From assembly GCF_937951745.1 (NCBI RefSeq), contig NZ_CALFBQ010000048.1, forward strand, positions 1 to 64,000: DNA of 64,000 nucleotides, written 5' to 3'. The translations under genes and the position numbers were made by a program. Below the pieces are notes generated by a model. It did no database searches, was not told where the DNA came from, and saw nothing but the letters and a program-made list of their open reading frames with translations. This document shows, piece by piece, positions 27,866-54,617 of this stretch (position 1 is its first letter; every line of letters begins with the position of its first letter). Source of the stretch: an uncultured Chloroflexus sp. GTDB taxonomy: Bacteria > Chloroflexota > Chloroflexia > Chloroflexales > Chloroflexaceae.

Positions 27866-28171
27866 TCAATCATCATCGGTCAGAATATTCAACGCAGCAG
27901 CCACTCGCGGCCAATCCGACGAACGCAATTCACCGATAAACGCCGTAGGCGGGCCGGGTTCGACAACCAGCAGTGTCGGTGTCGCGATAATGTGATCTTC
28001 GCGCGCCCGATCGGGCTGTTGGTAGACATCAATTACCTCAAGCCGGTAGCGACCGGGCATATACCGCTCGCACAACCGGCGCACCGTGGTAATTGCGCGG
28101 GTCGAGCGGCTGGTTGCGCCGGCGACGTACAACCGCAGCAATGGTACAACTGGCTGATTGGTGATATCCAT
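27866..28171 (-). CDS. kaiB: KaiB-domain protein (divergent copy)
   Basis: 101 residues covering a whole KaiB thioredoxin-like fold: LRLYVAGATSRSTRAITTVRRLCE, then YRLEVIDVYQQPDRAREDHIIATPTLLVVEPGPP. The KaiB cis-proline region ATPTL is kept, but the PPP-R-K-IGDLS tail of clock KaiB is changed to PGPPTAFIGELRSSDW. KaiB binds the ATPase ring of KaiC. It starts 4 bases after the stop of the second kaiB, so they are translationally linked. Divergence suggests a separate partner or regulatory role. Confidence 0.85.
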   Translation of the reverse strand: MDITNQPVVPLLRLYVAGATSRSTRAITTVRRLCERYMPGRYRLEVIDVYQQPDRAREDHIIATPTLLVVEPGPPTAFIGELRSSDWPRVAAALNILTDDD

Positions 28172-28175
28172 CGGC

Positions 28176-28484
28176 TCAGCTCCCTGTATGTCGCCGGGGT
28201 GTTAGATCCAGCCCAACCAGCACCCGTTCCGTATTCGAGAGATCGCCAACGATTTTGCGTATCGGCGGCGGCAACTTGCGCACCAAGGTTGGAATAGCCA
28301 GAATATTATCGCTAATCGCTCGTTCGGGTTCGTGATGCAAATCGATCACGTGAACCCGATAGCGATTATGCAGGTATTGGTCACAAATCCGGCGCAAATT
28401 AGCGACTGCGAGCAGACTTTTGGGAGTCTGTCCGGCAATGTAGAGCCACAGATCATATTCATACTCCGGCGCTTCATCTGCCAT
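28176..28484 (-). CDS. kaiB: KaiB-domain protein (closer to clock KaiB)
   Basis: 102 residues from the ATG at 28484. It matches cyanobacterial KaiB closely: [49 protein letters not shown], then [25 protein letters not shown]. Clock KaiB switches fold to bind phosphorylated KaiC. Its start overlaps the end of kaiC by 11 bases, which indicates translational coupling. The longer ORF starting at 28508 lies further into kaiC. Confidence 0.92.
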
Positions 28485-30189
28485 CGCTACCCTCTTGAGT
28501 AGAGTCACGGTACCGGCTGGTCGCGAGCCGGCTCTGGATCTGCGCGCGTGCGCGTGCTTCCGATAGGTCGGCTGCCGCGTTCATCTCGTCATCGAGCGCA
28601 GCCAACTCGGCTTGCAACGCCTCGATCTGTAATGCCAACAGGCGCTGTTGCAAGGCGTAACGACGCTGGCGCTGGATCGCTTCCCGCTCGTGCAGTTCCT
28701 GTTCGTGCCGGAGCCGCTCTTGTTCGGCGATGCGGGCAGCGCCAATCAACACCGTCTCACCGGCGGCGTAAATTTCCACCAATCGCAACCCGTGCGCATC
28801 CATCACCAGCTCGCGCACCTGATTGGAATGGCGCATGCCGCGGGATTTGAGCACCAGCAAGCTACGGTTGCGTTCGCCGTTGGTCTCGTGGTTGCGCAAG
28901 ACGATCCACGTATCGACCAGCGATGAAATATTGACCTCACTCTGGGCAGGATCGGCGCCGGCATTGGTTAAGCTGGTAGCGAGGGTGGTGACACCCAACG
29001 ACTTAAGGCCATCGAAGAGGCGGAACAGCATCGTCGTAATATCAACCGGACGGCTGATGGTATGAAAGCCGGTGATCGGGTCGATCACTACGGCGCGCGC
29101 GCCGCTCTGTTCCACCGCTTCGAGCAACGTGATCAAGTGGGTCTCTAAACCGGCCAACGAGGGCCGGCTACTGATGATCTGCAAGAGGCCGCGATCGCGC
29201 CATTGTTGCAAATCAATCCCGATCGAGCGCAGATTGCGCACGATTTGATCGGCTGATTCCTCGAACGCGAAGAAGATCGCCGGTTCGCCGCGGGCGCAGG
29301 CAGCGGCGACAAACGATGCGCCAAGGCTTGTTTTGCCCGAACCGGTCGGGCCGCTTACTAGAATGGTGGAGCCGCGGTAATAGCCGCCGCCATCGAGCAA
29401 GTGGTCGAGATCGGGAAAGCCGCTTGAGATGCGTTCAGCGGAAACCGGATACCTCAGCGTAAACGAGGTGATTGGCAGCATAGTGATGCCATGTGGCCCG
29501 ATCGTAAAGGGATACTCATTGACGCCGTGAGAAGAGCCGCGATATTTGACGATGCGGGCATAGCGGGTCAACACATGCTCGGTAATCCGGTAGTCGAGCA
29601 AAATGACGCAATCAGCCACAAACTCTTCGATCCCAAAGCGGCTCAGGCCTTGCCCGGAACGTTCGGCGGTAATTATGGCGGTCAGGCCGCGCTGGCGCAA
29701 CCAGCGGAAGAGACGTTGCAATTCGCCGCGCAGAATGGATTGATTGCCAAACGCGCTAAAGAGGGTTTCAATCGTATCGAGCACGATCCGTTGTGCCCCA
29801 ATGCGATCAATCAGCAGGCCAAGCCGAATGAAGAGGCCTTCGAGATCGTACTCGCCCACCTCTGCTATTTCACCCTGCTCAAGCGAAATCTGTTCGAGCA
29901 GCAACAACCCGCGCTGTTCCAAATTGGCGACATCAATAGCAAGGTTCGCCACATTCATACGCAAATCAGCCGGGCTCTCTTCAAACGAGACAAAGAGGCC
30001 GGGTTCGCCGTAGAGCGCCGCGCCGCGGACCAACGTTTCAAACGCGAGCAGGGTCTTGCCACAGCCAGCGCCGCCGCAGATCAAGGTCGTCCGGCCTCGC
30101 GGCAGACCGCCGCCGGTGATGTCATCGAGACCACGAATCCCAGTTGGCGCTTTAGGCAAGTTCGTGATGGCGGCAGGAAATTCCACCAA
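28474..30189 (-). CDS. kaiC: KaiC-type dual RecA-domain ATPase/autokinase
   Basis: 571 residues. Two RecA-like domains: Walker A GGAGCGKT (39-46) with FEES (69-72), and GPTGSGKT (280-287) with FEES (309-312). The residues matching Ser431/Thr432 of cyanobacterial KaiC are Ser422 and Ser423 in VNISSLVD, so autophosphorylation is possible. The last 85 residues are a long charged coiled coil ([18 protein letters not shown] and on), longer than the KaiC A-loop tail; no KaiA gene is in the window. It forms a block with two kaiB genes and a kinase on the minus strand. Confidence 0.92.
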
Positions 30190-30251
30190 CGCTCCTCTTC
30201 TCTACAACAATACCGGCTCCTCCCCGTCATGCGCGGCGGCGACGAGTGGCA

Positions 30252-31553
30252 TCATTCATCAGTCGGATCAGCGCGGTTCATCACCTTGGCCATATGCTTG
30301 CCAGCTAACGCGCCGAACCCCAGACTAGCCAATTCGGCAATCATTGCTGCCAACTGGTAGCCGCTGCCCTGTGCTGGATCGGGATGGTACAGGCTCAGTA
30401 CGCCAATCACCTCATCGTGTTGCCGGATGGGTAACGACATCCGCTCGCCGAGCAACCCGTTCGGGATAAAATTGCATACATGGCTATCGCCGGCCAGACT
30501 CAACGCCCAGCGCCGTTCTCCCCAACACGAGCAGCGCGGTACCGGCCGGTGAACGAGTGGTTCACCCCAGTGACCAACCGGATGGACAAGATCGGTGGCA
30601 GGGTTGTAGATCAACAAAGAACCACGATAGCCGTGTAACAAGTTCGCGCCAGCGGTAATGATGGCCGCATAGATCTCTTGGCGCGAGCGCGCTGCGTTAA
30701 GGGTATGCGCGAGCGTACCGAGAGCGGTGAGTGCCTGTTCACGCTGTTCTAGCAACGATTGATTAGTTTGTAATCGGCGTTTCGCTTCTTGCAACTGGTT
30801 GATTGCCCGTTGCCGTTCACTGACATCACGGAACACGATCACGACACCCTCATTTGCACCGTCAGCGCCGGTTATTTGGGCTACGGTATGCTCAACCAGC
30901 AAGCGATCGCCATTCCGGGTCAGGAGCGTGACCGGGGCTGGCAAGCCATTTACCGAATCGGGATGGGGCGGCGTGCTATCAGCCGGCAAGCCGGTATTGG
31001 TGGCAACCAAGGTATAAATGCGCGCCAAGGGCCAACCGATAGCCTCCTCGGGGGTAATGCCCAACAAGCGCGCAGCCACCGGATTGACAAAGGTGATCCG
31101 GCTTTGCGGATCGGTGACAATTACGCCATCGCCGATGCTGGTCAAGGTCGTGCGGAGATGGCGTTCGCTAGACTGCAGGCGCCGTTCAAGCCGGTACTTA
31201 TAAGCGGCGACGGCAATAGCGACCTCAAGCTCGCGTTCGTCAAACGGTTTAAGCAAGTAAGCCCATGGTTCAGCGAGGAGCGCCTCGCGCAAAGTCTGAT
31301 CGTCGGCGTGCGCAGTCAAAAAGACGACCGGCACCCCCCAACGGCTGTAAATCTGGCGTGCGGCTTCAATGCCGTCCATAGCCCCGCTGAGGCGAATATC
31401 CATCAAGACCAGATCAGGCGGTTGCCGCGCCACCGTAGCCAACGCCGCTTCACCACTTGTCACCACATCGGCGACCGAATGGCCGATGCGCCGCAAGGTC
31501 TGGCTTAGGTCTTGGGCAATGATTAATTCATCTTCGACGATCAACACCCGCAT
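30252..31553 (-). CDS. response regulator with receiver, PAS and GAF domains
   Basis: 433 residues: an N-terminal receiver domain with acidic pocket VEDE and phospho-Asp in LVLMDIRL (about residue 51) and Lys in LLKPFD; a PAS domain (about 128-255); a coiled coil; and a GAF domain (about 290-420) with several cysteines (RCSCW and SHVC). It has no kinase, HTH or GGDEF output, so it probably acts by protein contacts. It lies 62 bases upstream of kaiC on the same strand and is probably the first gene of the kai operon. Confidence 0.85.
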   Translation of the reverse strand: MRVLIVEDELIIAQDLSQTLRRIGHSVADVVTSGEAALATVARQPPDLVLMDIRLSGAMDGIEAARQIYSRWGVPVVFLTAHADDQTLREALLAEPWAYLLKPFDERELEVAIAVAAYKYRLERRLQSSERHLRTTLTSIGDGVIVTDPQSRITFVNPVAARLLGITPEEAIGWPLARIYTLVATNTGLPADSTPPHPDSVNGLPAPVTLLTRNGDRLLVEHTVAQITGADGANEGVVIVFRDVSERQRAINQLQEAKRRLQTNQSLLEQREQALTALGTLAHTLNAARSRQEIYAAIITAGANLLHGYRGSLLIYNPATDLVHPVGHWGEPLVHRPVPRCSCWGERRWALSLAGDSHVCNFIPNGLLGERMSLPIRQHDEVIGVLSLYHPDPAQGSGYQLAAMIAELASLGFGALAGKHMAKVMNRADPTDE

Positions 31554-33347: not shown

Positions 33348-34361
33348 ATGGAAACGCTTGAACTGTCGCTGATCACGCCACGGGTTACCCTCATTGCAGC
33401 GGCTGAAAATTATGGCCGCTTCGCCATCGCGCCGCTGCAACGCGGCCATGCCTCATCGCTCGGGAATGCGTTGCGCCGCGTGTTGATCTCGTCAATCCCC
33501 GGCGCCGCTATTACCCGGATTAAAGTGGCGGGTGTGATTCATGAATTTACTGCTATTCCCGGCGTCGTAGAAGACGGCACCCAGTTGGTGCTCAATGTGA
33601 AAGGTATTCGGCTGCGTTCGTATAGCGATCGGGCAGTGGCGTTGCAGTTGGTTAAGCATGGCCCCGGCCCCGTGTTTGCAGGTGATATTGATACTCCTAG
33701 CACCGTCGAGATCGTGAATCCGCAACACTACCTTTGCACGATTGACGATGAGAACACAACGCTCGAAATGCAGTTGACGGTTGAGCGTGGCCGGGGGGTG
33801 CAGTTAGCCGATACAGTGAGTGGCATGCCGATTGGCGAGATTGCAGTTGATGCTCTTTTTAGTCCGATTCCGCGGGTCAACTTTTTGGTGGAAGAGATGG
33901 GTGATGATCCACTCACCGGCTACGATCGGCTCATTCTTGAGATTTGGACTGATGGCACCATCAAGCCGGGTGATGCGTTGAGCCACGCTGCCCAAATCTT
34001 AACTCAGTATTTTGGCCGGATTGTGAGCTTGAACCAGCCGGAAGAGCCTGAACAGCAGCCCAACCTGCCGCCGCCGATCCCGGAAGAGATTGCCAATCGC
34101 ACGATTGATGAGCTTGGTTTAAGTACTCGAACCTACAACAGTTTGCGCCGTGCGGAGATCCACACCATCGGGCAGTTGTTGCGCCTTGATGATCGTGGCC
34201 TTATGGGGATTCGTAATTTGGGTGCGAAGGGGATTGAAGAGATCCACCATCGTCTTGAGGCGCTCGGCTATCGTTCGGGTGAAGCTGCATCCGGCCGATT
34301 GCCCGACTCATCCGCCGACCATACTACTCCGCCAACCGGTGCAATCCACGCAGAGGAGTGA
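33348..34361 (+). CDS. rpoA: RNA polymerase alpha subunit (RpoA)
   Basis: 337 residues. The N-terminal domain for dimerisation and beta/beta' binding has PLQRGHASSLGNALRRVLISSIPGAAIT. The C-terminal domain (about 245-310) has IDELGLSTRTYNSLRRAEIHTIGQL and the helix-hairpin-helix IRNLGAKGIEEI that contacts DNA and activators. The expected neighbours rpsD, rpsK and rplQ are absent, so this is either a relocated gene or a second alpha paralog. Its stop is 11 bases before the rho ATG. Confidence 0.9.
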   Translation: METLELSLITPRVTLIAAAENYGRFAIAPLQRGHASSLGNALRRVLISSIPGAAITRIKVAGVIHEFTAIPGVVEDGTQLVLNVKGIRLRSYSDRAVALQLVKHGPGPVFAGDIDTPSTVEIVNPQHYLCTIDDENTTLEMQLTVERGRGVQLADTVSGMPIGEIAVDALFSPIPRVNFLVEEMGDDPLTGYDRLILEIWTDGTIKPGDALSHAAQILTQYFGRIVSLNQPEEPEQQPNLPPPIPEEIANRTIDELGLSTRTYNSLRRAEIHTIGQLLRLDDRGLMGIRNLGAKGIEEIHHRLEALGYRSGEAASGRLPDSSADHTTPPTGAIHAEE

Positions 34362-34372
34362 TAAGACACGCA

Positions 34373-35635
34373 ATGGATGACAAGCGTATGACGACAGGTA
34401 CTCCCGAATCAGCCGATAAGACGCGCCGGCGCCGGCGCCGGGTGAATGGTGATGCGGGGTCATCAGCCGGGAGCGAAGGTGTGCTTGCTGCGCCGGCAAC
34501 AACTGCTGTGGTCGAAGAACCGGTGACAATGCAGGGTTCCGGCTTACTGGAAATCGTTCCCGAAGGCCACGGCTTCTTACGTAATCCGCGGCTGAGCCCC
34601 AGCAACGATGATGTGTACGTGGCGCAATCCCAGATCCGCCGCTTTAATCTGCGCACTGGCGATATGATCGAGGGTCGTGTGCGCCCGCCCAAAGAGGTTG
34701 AACGTTACCCCTCGTTGCTCTATGTCGAGCGGATCAATGGCCTGCCAGCCGAAATGGCCCAGAAGCGACCGTTATTCGAGCAGTTGACGCCGATCCATCC
34801 CAATGTGCAGATTGTGCTCTCGACTGAGCCGAATATTCTCCCGACGCGCATTGTTGATGTGATTGCGCCGATTGGTCGTGGCCAGCGCGGTTTGATCGTT
34901 GCTCCGCCCAAAGCTGGGAAAACGATGTTGCTCAAGGCGATCGCCAATGGTGTGACGACCAATGCGCCTGATATTCAGCTCATTGTGCTCTTAATCGGCG
35001 AACGGCCCGAAGAAGTAACCGATATGCGCCGTTCGGTGCAGGGTGAGGTGGTGGCCGCCACGTTCGATGAGCCGGTCGAGCAGCATATCAAGGTGGCCGA
35101 ATTGGTGCTCGAAAAGGCCAAGCGGCAGGTGGAGCACGGGCGCCACGTGGTGATTTTGATGGATTCGCTCACCCGTCTGACCCGCGCCTATAACATTGCG
35201 ATGCCGCCAAGCGGGCGCACGCTCTCCGGCGGTGTTGATCCGGCGGCGCTCTACCCGCCCAAGCGGTTTTTCGGTTCAGCGCGTAATATCGAAGATGGCG
35301 GCTCGCTCACCATTATCGCTACCTGCCTCGTTGATACTGGTTCGCGTATGGACGATGTGATCTACGAGGAGTTCAAGGGTACCGGTAACATGGAGCTGCA
35401 TCTCGATCGTAAGCTGGCTGAGAAGCGCATCTTCCCCGCAGTTGATATCCAGCGTTCGGGCACCCGCCGCGAGGATCTGTTGCTCGATCCGGTGACGCTG
35501 CGTCAGAGCTGGATGCTGCGGCGAATGGTCAGCATGGTTGGCGAGAATGAAGGCGCTGAGTTGATGCTGACCCGAATGGCCAAGACGAAGAATAATGCTG
35601 AGTTCCTTGCGTCGCTGGGCAAAGTTGGCTCATAA
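34373..35635 (+). CDS. rho: transcription termination factor Rho
   Basis: 420 residues. The N-terminal tail (1-55) is Arg/Ala/Ser-rich and replaces the usual Rho-N helical domain. It is followed by the cold-shock-like RNA-binding domain ([27 protein letters not shown]) and the RecA-like ATPase with Walker A APPKAGKT, Walker [13 protein letters not shown]-loop and R-loop ([28 protein letters not shown]). It is a hexameric RNA helicase that ends transcription. The ATG at 34373 is chosen; a GTG at 34358 overlaps rpoA. It is co-transcribed with rpoA. Confidence 0.93.
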
Positions 35636-50018: not shown

Positions 50019-50260
50019 ACATGCTCCTGTGTTAGAGGTTGATATCGAGAGGTGTCTGCCGATCGCAATCGCTTACCCTTTCCACTAACGAAAGATTTAA
50101 CGGATGTGTTCTGGTTGTAACAAAACGTTCAATCTGTTTCAAGAATGCGATGGTATAATGCAGTAACACAAGAGTGACACAAGCCGGCAGTACCATTGCG
50201 GCCCGCTGAAGCACACTTCCGGCTAAGTAGGCCAAATGTTTTGCAAAGGATGACAAGCGC

Positions 50261-52831
50261 TTGCCGGCTGCCATCACCTTTCCCGTTTTGCTCAAGCAAT
50301 GCCGTCTTGAGCTGGGGCTGACGCAAACCCAATTAGCGGTGCGCGCCGGGATCTCGGTGTCGCTGGTGCGAAAGTACGAAACCGGCGCGCGGATGCCGCC
50401 TCGTGCCACGGCGGTGCAACTGGCGAACGCTTTGGGGTTGGCCGGTGAGGAGCGCACCGCCTTTCTTGCTGCTGCCGGTTCGCGCACGTTACCCAATGCC
50501 ACCATCCAGCCCATCCCGGCGACGGCGCGTCCTCTAGCGCATCGCTTGCCAGTTGCGCCGACTCCATTACTTGGACGCGACGCCGAGATCGCTGAACTTA
50601 TCCAGTTGATCGGTGCGCATACGGCCCGTTGTGTCACGTTGATCGGCCCGCCGGGAGTGGGAAAGTCGCGCTTGGCGCTGGCTGTGGCTACCGCGTTGCA
50701 GCCATCGTTTGCTGATGGCGCAGCGGTGATCGAGTTGGCGGCGCTTGATGATCCGGCAGCGGTTGCGCCATTCATCGCCGCGCGCCTTGGCGCGCAGGGT
50801 GATGAAGCTGAAGCGGCGCTGATCGCCTTGCTTGCTCAGCGTTCATTCCTGCTCGTGCTCGATAACTTCGAGCAGCTCTTGCCGGCGGCGCCGTTGATCG
50901 CGCGCTTATTGGCGGCGGCGCCGCAGTTGTCCGTTCTCATCACGAGCCGTGTGCCGCTATGTCTGCGTGCCGAAACCCGCTTTTTGGTCAAGCCGCTGAT
51001 CGTACCGGCCAACCGGCGCGTGAGCGCGGTGGCGGCAGCGCCGGCTACCCGGCTGTTTTGCGAACGCGCGGCGGCAGTGAACCCGGCGTTTGCCCTTAGC
51101 GTGGCTAATGCAGCAACGGTTGCCGCGCTTTGCCAGCGGCTCGACGGTCTGCCGTTGGCGATTGAGTTGGCTGCGGCTCACGCCGATGTGCTCGAACCGG
51201 CGGCGTTGTTGGCGAGCCTTGAGGCGGGGGTGACGGCGTTTGATAGCAGTTTTGCCGATCTGCCGGCGCACCAGCGCTCGTTGCAGGCCACGATTGCGTG
51301 GAGTGAACGTTTGCTGGCGCCGGCAGCACGCGACAGCTTTGCTCGCTTGGGTGTGTTTCCGAGTACGTTTGACGCACCGGCAGCGGTAGCGTTGGGTGTA
51401 GACAGTCTTGACCCGCTGGTTGAGGCAGGGCTGGTGCAGGTTGAAGCAAGCGGACGGTTTCGTTTGCTCGAAACGATCCGGGTTTTCGCTGCCGAACGGT
51501 TGCAATCGCATCCTGAAGCTGCCAGTGTCTATACGTGCCACGCCGCCTATTTTGCCAACCTTGCCGAAACGGCCGGCCTGCTGCTCGAAAGCGCAGCAGC
51601 CGCAACGACGCTGAATCAACTCGATGCTGAGCTACCGAATTTACGTGCAGCGATTCGCTGGTCGTTGACCGCCGACAACGGGATGGTGGCAGCGCGAATC
51701 ACCGCGGCGCTGCGCGTTTACTGGCTGAGCCGGCGCGCAGTCTACGCGGGGCGTTTGGTCGAACCACTGTTGATGTCTGGGTCAGCGCAAGCCATCCCGC
51801 CTGCATTGCGCGGACGTGCACTGATTACGGTTGGCTATCTTGCCTCGCAGCAGGGTGCGTTACATGCCGGTGATCTGCTTGCCCAAGGGATTGCGCTGGC
51901 ACGCCAAGCAGGGCAAGAGGCCGATGTGGCGCAGGGCTTAGCCTACCAAGGCATGCTCAACCGCTTCCCCGGCAATCTGGAGCGCTATGCAACCATCCTC
52001 AACGAAGCGATTATGATTGCCCGGCGCAGCAATGCGCCGGCTCCTTTAGCGTATGCGCTTAATCAGCTCGGCGTCGGGTATTGCACCCATGGCCATTACC
52101 ACAAAGCATTGCCTATGCTGCGCGAAGCGGTTGATCTGGTGACGCACAATGGCGATCAGATCATGGTGTGGCGCTACCGGTGCGATGTGGCCGAAGCGTT
52201 GCGTTCATACGGCGACCTATCGCCGGCGCGCCGGATGTTTGCCGGCCTGATTGCACAATTAACTGCTGGTGGTGACGCGATGGCGTTGTGGGAAGCGCAT
52301 CTGCGCCTCGCCAGCATCGATCTGGAAGAGGGAGCGATCACAGCGGCGGAACGCAACCTTGCCGCCGCCAGTGCGATCATCACCGAGATGAGCATTTCCT
52401 ATGGTCGGGTCAGCCTGTTGCGACACAGTGGCTATCTCGCGATCGCCGCCGGGAGGCATGAAGCTGCATTAATCAATCTCAGCTCCGCGCAACGGGAAGC
52501 CTGCAAAGTATACCTGCCAGAAGAGTTGTCTGCTGCGCTGATCGGGCTTGCCTATCTGCACCGCAACGCAGATCGCCGGCGCGCCGCTCGACAGTGTGGT
52601 GCGGGTGAAGGTATCCTTACCCGCTACCAGCTCCGCCGTGATCGGCAGGCCGAATGGTTGCGGCAAGCGGTACGGGAAACGTTCACTCCATCTGAACACG
52701 AGCTAGCAAACGAAGCGGCGCAAACGGTAATCAATAGCTTGCCCCAGCTTGCGTTTATCAGTGTGGTAGAGGCTCGTGACATGGTGCGGTTAGATCGCGT
52801 CATCGCCGCTGCGTTACGAGGAGCGCCGTAG
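50261..52831 (+). CDS. XRE-family STAND NTPase regulator with TPR-like repeats
   Basis: 856 residues. An N-terminal XRE helix-turn-helix (LTQTQLAVRAGISVSLVRKYETGARMP) is followed by an NB-ARC/AAA-like NTPase with Walker A GPPGVGKS (129-136), LLVLDNFEQLL (Walker B) and a sensor ITSR. LDGLPLAIELAA follows, and then a long helical TPR-like region (about 480-780). It resembles SARP/MalT-like signal-transduction ATPases that switch on ligand binding. The start is TTG; no better start is seen. Its stop lies inside a palindromic repeat. Confidence 0.85.
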   Translation: MPAAITFPVLLKQCRLELGLTQTQLAVRAGISVSLVRKYETGARMPPRATAVQLANALGLAGEERTAFLAAAGSRTLPNATIQPIPATARPLAHRLPVAPTPLLGRDAEIAELIQLIGAHTARCVTLIGPPGVGKSRLALAVATALQPSFADGAAVIELAALDDPAAVAPFIAARLGAQGDEAEAALIALLAQRSFLLVLDNFEQLLPAAPLIARLLAAAPQLSVLITSRVPLCLRAETRFLVKPLIVPANRRVSAVAAAPATRLFCERAAAVNPAFALSVANAATVAALCQRLDGLPLAIELAAAHADVLEPAALLASLEAGVTAFDSSFADLPAHQRSLQATIAWSERLLAPAARDSFARLGVFPSTFDAPAAVALGVDSLDPLVEAGLVQVEASGRFRLLETIRVFAAERLQSHPEAASVYTCHAAYFANLAETAGLLLESAAAATTLNQLDAELPNLRAAIRWSLTADNGMVAARITAALRVYWLSRRAVYAGRLVEPLLMSGSAQAIPPALRGRALITVGYLASQQGALHAGDLLAQGIALARQAGQEADVAQGLAYQGMLNRFPGNLERYATILNEAIMIARRSNAPAPLAYALNQLGVGYCTHGHYHKALPMLREAVDLVTHNGDQIMVWRYRCDVAEALRSYGDLSPARRMFAGLIAQLTAGGDAMALWEAHLRLASIDLEEGAITAAERNLAAASAIITEMSISYGRVSLLRHSGYLAIAAGRHEAALINLSSAQREACKVYLPEELSAALIGLAYLHRNADRRRAARQCGAGEGILTRYQLRRDRQAEWLRQAVRETFTPSEHELANEAAQTVINSLPQLAFISVVEARDMVRLDRVIAAALRGAP

Positions 52832-52856
52832 GTACATTGCACCGCAATGTCCCTAC
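52828..52856. repeat. GTAGG-ACATTGC palindrome between convergent genes
   Basis: GTAGGTACATTGC, ACC, GCAATGTCCCTAC: a 13-bp stem with one mismatch. It overlaps the stop codons of the STAND gene and the DegU-like gene. Related to the palindromes at 41519 and 60305. Confidence 0.6.
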
Positions 52857-53566
52857 TCAAGCGGTTGCGAATAACCCATCTTAATCCACCCCTTTTTAAT
52901 TGCCACAATTACCGCCATCGTGCGGTCATTGACCTGCAACTTAGAGAGGATGGAGGTGATATGATTTTTGACCGTCTGGCCGCTAATGCTCAGCTCGTTG
53001 GCAATCTCTTTGTTGGAAAGGCCGCGGGCAATGCAATCGAGAATCTCAATTTCGCGCGAGGTCAGCGGGGCAAACAAATTCGCGCTGTCCTCTTCGTCGG
53101 TGGCGGCCAGTTCGCGGAATTGGTGCAGCACCCGCGCCGCGACGTTGGGCCGGGCCAGCACTGCATCGTTGATCAGATAACGCCCGCGGGCGACCTCGCG
53201 GATCATTTGCACCAGCTCTTCCGGGCTAATATCTTTGGATGTAAAGGCAGCCGCACCGACCTTAATTGCCTGAAATAATTGATCATCGTCTTCATAAACA
53301 CTCAGCACGATGATGCCGGTGCGCGGCTCGCGGCGCTTAATCACCCGCGCCACCTCCAACCCGTTCAAGCCGGGTAGGTTAATATCGACCAGCACCACAT
53401 CGGGCATCAGGCGTTCGGTCAGCTTGATCGCCTCTTGGCCGTTCTCAGCCTCGCCGATCACCTCAATATCGGATGCACTCTCTAAACTCCAGCGGATCCC
53501 CTGCCGGAAGAGCGGGTGGTCATCAATCACTAATACTCTGACCTTTGATGATAATGGCGCTGTCAC
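52853..53566 (-). CDS. NarL/FixJ-family response regulator (DegU-like)
   Basis: 237 residues. The receiver domain has IDDHPLFRQGI, phospho-Asp in VVLVDINLPG and Lys in FTSKDIS. The LuxR-type HTH is LTSREIEILDCIARGLSNKEIANELSISGQTVKNHITSILSKL. Its gene lies 19 bases downstream of a DegS-like kinase gene on the same strand, so the two form a two-component pair. Confidence 0.92.
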   Translation of the reverse strand: MTAPLSSKVRVLVIDDHPLFRQGIRWSLESASDIEVIGEAENGQEAIKLTERLMPDVVLVDINLPGLNGLEVARVIKRREPRTGIIVLSVYEDDDQLFQAIKVGAAAFTSKDISPEELVQMIREVARGRYLINDAVLARPNVAARVLHQFRELAATDEEDSANLFAPLTSREIEILDCIARGLSNKEIANELSISGQTVKNHITSILSKLQVNDRTMAVIVAIKKGWIKMGYSQPLE

Positions 53567-53585
53567 GCATGACTCCTCGGATAAC

Positions 53586-54617
53586 TCAACCCGGTTGCGG
53601 CAATGACATCGTCACTTGCACTTCGGTGCCGGCGCCACGCCGGGTCGTGACGGTTAGTTGCGCGCCGATCAGCTCGGCCCGTTCGCGCATGCTTGTCAAC
53701 CCCCAGCTCTCGCGTCCGGCGCGCCGAACGACTTCACGCAGATCAAAGCCGGGTCCTTCATCACGGATCGACAGATGCAAGCGTCCGCCGCGAGCTAACA
53801 AGGTGACCCGAACTGGCGCGCCGCGGGCATGTTTGCGCGCATTCTGCAAGGCCTCTTGCACGATGCGGTAGAGCACGATCTCGGTTTCAGCCGGCAAGCG
53901 CGGCAACGGATCGGCTTCAAACACGACCGGATTGCTTACCGTGTCGCGGTAGCGACGGATGTATTCGTGCAGCGCCGGCACCAGACCTTGTTCTTCCAAC
54001 TTACCCGGACGGAGATCGGCGATAAAGCTGCGCACTTCACGCAAGCCCTCGCGCACGTTATCACCGAGCTGGCTAAGGATCGAGCCGAGCTGTTCCAGCT
54101 TCTGCTCTTGGAGCAGATTTTGGCAGACTTCGACCCCCATCAGTGCATTAGCCAGCACTTGCGCCGGCCCGTCATGCACTTCGCGCGCCAGTCGGATGCG
54201 CTCTTCCTCGCGACCCTTAATGACTTGCGCCCGCAACGCCTGCACCCACGGATCGGCAGCCACGCCTTCCACATTGCGGGTAAGGGTGGTGCTACTCATC
54301 TCGATTTGGCGGATAAGTTGGTCGAGTTGGCGGAGCGACCGGCGCAATTCGGCTTCAGCTTCAGCCGCGGTGGCGTGTTCGGCTCGCAATTGCTTGACCC
54401 GCGCCGCGATAGCAACGGTGGATAAGCCGTGTTCACGAGCAAACTGCTCTTGTACCACTGCTTCATCGAGTTGGCGCGAAAGTTGGCGCGCACGCTGAAC
54501 CACGCCTTCTTGCTGTTGCAAGGCGGCGTGGTAGAGTTCGCGCAATCCGGCAAGTTGGGCGGCAACAATGGCTGTAGCGCGCTCGAGAAGGGCGGCTGGC
54601 TCCGTACTCAAAGGCAT
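53586..54617 (-). CDS. DegS-like cytoplasmic sensor histidine kinase
   Basis: 343 residues, no membrane segment. A long coiled-coil sensor domain (about 5-125) is followed by HisKA_3 with the phospho-His in RIRLAREVHDGPAQVLANAL, then a HATPase domain (VQEALQNARKHA, DEGPGFD, SWGLTSMRERAELIGA). It would phosphorylate the adjacent NarL-type regulator. The start is the ATG at 54617. Confidence 0.9.
   Translation of the reverse strand: MPLSTEPAALLERATAIVAAQLAGLRELYHAALQQQEGVVQRARQLSRQLDEAVVQEQFAREHGLSTVAIAARVKQLRAEHATAAEAEAELRRSLRQLDQLIRQIEMSSTTLTRNVEGVAADPWVQALRAQVIKGREEERIRLAREVHDGPAQVLANALMGVEVCQNLLQEQKLEQLGSILSQLGDNVREGLREVRSFIADLRPGKLEEQGLVPALHEYIRRYRDTVSNPVVFEADPLPRLPAETEIVLYRIVQEALQNARKHARGAPVRVTLLARGGRLHLSIRDEGPGFDLREVVRRAGRESWGLTSMRERAELIGAQLTVTTRRGAGTEVQVTMSLPQPG

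Follow-up and report, generated by a model that had tools for sequence, protein, structure and literature searches.

In the genome of an uncultured Chloroflexus sp., a second gene for the RNA polymerase alpha subunit (rpoA2) is linked to a second gene for the transcription termination factor Rho (rho2). Two alphas and two Rhos are encoded beside one beta and one beta-prime subunit, the linkage is conserved among relatives, the genes are under purifying selection, and the two alphas have opposite site-rate profiles. The RNA polymerase of nearly all bacteria contains an alpha homodimer, and that of archaea and eukaryotes a heterodimer. Reading these patterns of sequence evolution, we lean, a little beyond an even balance, towards a duplication of rpoA in which the jobs of the alpha dimer were divided between the copies. 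The main polymerase would join one beta and one beta-prime to an oriented heterodimer, the rho-linked alpha (alpha-rho) taking the beta side and the alpha of the ribosomal protein operon (alpha-rib) the beta-prime side, and it would carry one canonical and one altered C-terminal domain (CTD) at fixed places, while Rho2, a second Rho without the Rho_N domain, would have a separable job. The heterodimer, its orientation, the CTD roles, the co-transcription of rpoA2 and rho2 and the role of Rho2 are all drawn from how the sequences have evolved.

In the window, the whole stretch of 64,000 nucleotides that was analysed, the open reading frame at 33348-34361 (plus strand) encodes a complete alpha of 337 amino acids. 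Its product scores above the Pfam cut-off for each of the three alpha domains, RNA_pol_A_bac (PF01000), RNA_pol_L (PF01193) and RNA_pol_A_CTD (PF03118), and passes the NCBIfam rpoA model TIGR02027 (296 bits, cut-off 227.8). The first-pass annotation had placed this rpoA outside the ribosomal protein operon, directly upstream of rho with an 11-base gap, which is correct, and had left the choice between a second alpha subunit and a relocated single gene. The genome search that it proposed, for an rpoA near rpsD/rplQ, decides for the former: a match lies between rpsD and rplQ at C14:14386-15327 (E 1.5e-87), 45% identical to the rho-linked alpha, so that rpoA2 is neither a relocated single gene nor the sole rpoA. 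Its arrangement is found in some relatives only. Beside the two rpoA genes the source genome has one rpoB and one rpoC.

The adjoining rho2 (34373-35635, plus strand) encodes a protein of 420 amino acids; its ATG at 34373 lies 11 bases past the alpha stop, and an alternative GTG start at 34358 overlaps that stop by 4 bases. A ribosome-binding-like motif for rho2, GAGGAG (34353-34358, plus strand), is located inside the 3' end of rpoA2 and is kept between Chloroflexus species, which is consistent with one transcript, and the two genes are probably co-transcribed in Chloroflexus. Rho2 passes TIGR00767 (586.5 bits, cut-off 509.45) and has complete RNA-binding (PF07497, amino acids 56-126, 34538-34750) and ATPase (PF00006, amino acids 159-362, 34847-35458) domains, both on the plus strand. 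The genome's other rho (Rho1) is encoded at C30:11263-12378 and is 77% identical to Rho2. The Rho_N domain (PF07498) is present in Rho1 and gave no Pfam match in the Rho2 of three genera; Rho1 and the single Rhos of relatives have an N-terminal segment beginning like NVAELESKTLxDLREMARKLDISG, which is absent from Rho2, including the copies of other genera, and an N-terminal tail with an arginine run (34373-34525, plus strand) stands in the place of Rho_N in the Rho2 of the window. In being a second, N-terminally short Rho paralog, Rho2 resembles the NCBIfam paralog_Rho2 short form (NF041509), but its score of 473 bits falls short of the cut-off of 628 and excludes it from that family.

Both alphas have dN/dS values of mostly 0.04-0.09, which indicates purifying selection, except that the operon alpha of one very close pair has a higher value, which is poorly determined; Rho2 has values of about 0.02-0.05. 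The low dN/dS rejects a pseudogene or decaying rpoA2, and an assembly artefact is unlikely, as the rpoA2-rho2 pair is also present in the single-contig relatives G002, G004 and G006.

Regarding distribution, 61 genomes, the window's own and those of 60 relatives, were surveyed. The genus itself has two alphas in 8/8 genomes, and six other genera of the family have them too, giving seven Chloroflexales genera, which include Chloroflexus, Ca. Chloroploca, Oscillochloris and Ca. Viridilinea (names per public records). A single alpha was found in ten other genera of the family and in almost every genome from three further families of the order; one fragmented genome had none, and some extra matches are fragments. 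Among 301 Chloroflexota genomes only three others had two alpha matches (G260, G070 and G304), the second match in G304 being a contig-end fragment. The remaining two genomes have separate full-length second alphas away from the ribosomal operon and with no adjacent rho (L237, G260:C1:2392342-2393253; L238, G070:C20:8310-9233), that of G070 being possibly a contamination. A link to chlorosomes was considered and rejected, as CsmA (PF02043) was found in many single-alpha genera too (relatives g2, g3, g6, g8, g9 and g16), so that the distribution of the second alpha does not follow that of chlorosomes.

The genera with two alphas also have two rhos, with the exception of Viridilinea, which has one, and a few incomplete genomes with fragments or one rho only. 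The pairing of an initiation and a termination factor in one unit, which the first-pass annotation had singled out as unusual, is real, and the adjacency of rpoA2 and rho2 is conserved in six genera, the rho concerned being itself the second, N-terminally shortened copy. The neighbours otherwise differ between Chloroflexus and the other genera, and duplication of a larger block was rejected, the flanking genes not being common to both. The tight arrangement is peculiar to Chloroflexus, the gap between rpoA2 and rho2 being about 90-600 bases in the other genera. At the locus of a further genus (genus 5, L080) rpoA2 and rho2 are followed by a minus-strand gene of about 490 amino acids, and in Viridilinea (L081) a homologue of this gene directly follows rpoA2; rho2 has therefore probably been deleted in Viridilinea while rpoA2 was kept. 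Because one genus has lost rho2, the job of Rho2 would be separable from that of rpoA2.

In phylogenetic trees the rho-linked alphas form one clade (100/100) with a stem of 1.32, and the operon alphas of the two-alpha genera form another (100/100) with a stem of 0.11, inside the family. The best tree places the rho-linked alphas beside a long-branched single alpha of another family and apart from the operon alphas, as might be expected if rpoA2 and rho2 had arrived together by transfer from another lineage. However, a joint clade of rho-linked and operon alphas is not rejected (AU p 0.26) and long-branch attraction is likely; moreover, Rho2, likewise one clade (100/100) with a long stem of 0.82, falls inside the family, and a scan of the genome collection found only lower-identity relatives outside the clade and no donor. 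Transfer is on these grounds distinctly unlikely, and the most probable origin of rpoA2 is a duplication of rpoA in the ancestor of a subclade of the Chloroflexales.

The division of constraint between the two alphas was examined in E. coli residue numbering, checked against MG1655, with site rates for both alphas obtained from the same 21 genomes on one tree. Previously the strongest protection by beta was located at alpha residues 30-55 and 65-75 and that by beta-prime at 175-185 and 195-210; dimer contacts join residues 35, 38 and 39 with 46, 50 and 227, and in E. coli F35A abolishes and T38A weakens alpha dimers (PMC3294249). Across the 21 genomes, rates in the rho-linked alpha are about three times those of the operon alpha at 30-52 and 175-210; over 53-174 it is the slower of the two, by a factor of 2-4. 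The insert domain (PF01000, amino acids 58-172, 33519-33863 on the plus strand) evolves unusually slowly in the rho-linked alphas. The contrast between dimerisation and insert domains gave p 5e-5 in a 10-block permutation, for a partition chosen after seeing the profile, and was reached by 14/219 circular shifts; that between the literature-defined beta and beta-prime regions, 30-75 versus 175-210, gave p 0.076. Because of these values, subfunctionalisation of the two alphas is called likely, and the orientation is offered as reasoned from the pattern of sites.

At the level of residues, each paralog has dropped sites that are kept by every single-alpha relative. In the rho-linked alpha the dimer-helix positions 35, 37 and 38 are changed, position 35 being H throughout the genera and position 38 P or S; the single alphas have Y and T at positions 35 and 38. 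In the window the corresponding codons, H34-A35-S36-S37 (E. coli 35-38), lie at 33447-33458 on the plus strand, where the single alphas of relatives have Y35 and H37-T38. The loop at about E. coli 186-199 (33885-33926, plus strand), which adjoins and overlaps the beta-prime footprint, is eroded in the rho-linked alpha, with indels in several genera; the stretch 186-198, typically ENTRIGQATDFDRL in relatives, is kept by the operon alpha. The operon alpha in turn has lost Y93, R96 and S119 and has H66 weakened, all four of which are kept by the rho-linked alpha, and in Chloroflexus it has A50 at a dimer-contact position. R45, V46 and K86 are kept in both alphas, R45 in both copies across all genera. 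With the beta footprint taken whole, the rho-linked alpha has lost more than the operon alpha (0.20 vs 0.07); this greater loss and the retention of R45 and K86 by both copies count against the proposed division. Compensating changes in the polymerase partners were sought in columns invariant in single-alpha relatives; one such column in beta-prime and none in beta carries a fixed difference in the duplicated clade. The absence of visible compensation in beta-prime for the eroded loop, together with the Rpb3/Rpb11-like pattern in the insert domain, suggests that the rho-linked alpha would sit on beta and the operon alpha on beta-prime.

The first-pass annotation had proposed that a second alpha would allow alternative RNA polymerase assemblies; of this the two alphas stand, while the sites retained and lost by each copy speak rather for a single asymmetric polymerase using both. 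Two polymerases sharing beta and beta-prime, each with a homodimer of one alpha and with the rho-linked form serving certain conditions or promoters, would fit the presence of two intact alphas under selection beside a single beta and a single beta-prime, their distinct CTDs and their separate gene locations, which permit separate control. A homodimer of the rho-linked alpha would, however, bring altered positions 35, 37 and 38 to each side and would need to meet beta-prime, which shows hardly any compensation, through the eroded loop, and the loss from each paralog of universally kept sites is unexpected for an all-purpose homodimer; such a pair of polymerases appears unlikely. That the two alphas are interchangeable, as dosage or backup, was suggested for Chloroflexus (PMC3294249) and accords with the retention of R45, V46, K86 and all three domains in both, but 45% identity, the clade-wide replacement of conserved residues and the opposite rate profiles are not expected of equivalent copies, making this the least probable of the readings and a very unlikely one. 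Only marginally more credible is a rho-linked alpha outside the core enzyme, acting as a regulator together with Rho2 or as a competitor for beta: the conserved adjacency to rho2 and the long stem of the clade agree with it, and against it are the retention of the rho-linked alpha in Viridilinea after the deletion of rho2, the strong constraint on the beta-side determinant R45 and the insert domain, and the full set of alpha domains.

An oriented heterodimer would also place two different CTDs on the polymerase. At conserved sites the CTD of the operon alpha hardly departs from the single-alpha consensus. That of the rho-linked alpha (PF03118, amino acids 247-304, 34086-34259 on the plus strand in the window) keeps R265, N268, G296 and K298; position 269 is S, position 299 is mostly G, and in place of the acid of E. 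coli at 261 there is G or S. The rho-linked CTD has probably kept DNA binding and its sigma contact is perhaps altered, given the roles that we take these residues to have in E. coli.

The closest known system is that of Francisella, the RNA polymerase of which contains an alpha-1/alpha-2 heterodimer (PMC3294249; PDB 6wmp lists alpha 1 and alpha 2). Both lineages have a divergent pair of rpoA genes, of which only one lies in the ribosomal operon; selection acts on the two genes, which here stand beside one rpoB and one rpoC, and substitutions occur at the dimer and beta/beta-prime contact regions. The Chloroflexales case differs in its independent origin, in the linkage of the extra alpha to a second rho and in that its heterodimer is proposed from sequence; furthermore, Francisella loses the beta contact Arg45 in one copy whereas the Chloroflexales keep R45 in both, and the beta-facing copy is alpha-1 in Francisella but would here be the relocated, rho-linked one. 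The rpoA duplication itself was reported in 2011 for three Chloroflexus genomes, with the copies judged possibly equivalent (PMC3294249); its occurrence in further genera, the linked second rho and the opposite constraint were not described there, and the view that drastic substitutions are lacking at the dimer and contact regions is not supported by the present site comparison. Among open-licence papers, which give weak evidence of absence, none was found that describes the linkage to rho2, the occurrence beyond Chloroflexus or the opposite constraint, nor was any found there on a rho duplication in Chloroflexus.

The suggested division, with one partner constrained in the insert domain and the other not, resembles that between Rpb3 and Rpb11 (archaeal Rpo3 and Rpo11). 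Rpb3 has the insert domain and Rpb11 is without it, in line with the Pfam family names. In contrast to this pair, neither Chloroflexales subunit has lost an alpha domain, and both still have the bacterial CTD; the likeness is an analogy with no shared origin. The most far-reaching form of the proposal, that independently of Francisella an obligate oriented heterodimer arose with such a division, the beta-side alpha keeping the insert domain and the beta-prime-side alpha the contact loop, and was coupled to a dedicated second Rho without its N-terminal domain, is doubtful and is put forward tentatively. If true, it would represent a second independent origin of a bacterial alpha heterodimer and open the step from homodimer to heterodimer to comparison in a culturable and harmless phototroph, and with fixed unequal CTDs promoters would meet a handed polymerase. 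A Rho without Rho_N inherited beside a second alpha also raises the question of divided termination work.

Regarding other polymerase genes, the omega subunit (PF01192) had no match over the cut-off in the 61 Chloroflexales genomes, compared with 14/14 controls, and is either too divergent for the model or missing, and a relative from another family of the order (G039) has two nearly full-length rpoC genes about 7 kb apart (C10:39018-43445 and 50173-54600). Elsewhere in the window, at 27866-31553 on the minus strand, translations reveal a cluster resembling two KaiB-type proteins, a double KaiC-type ATPase and a response regulator with PAS and GAF-like parts.
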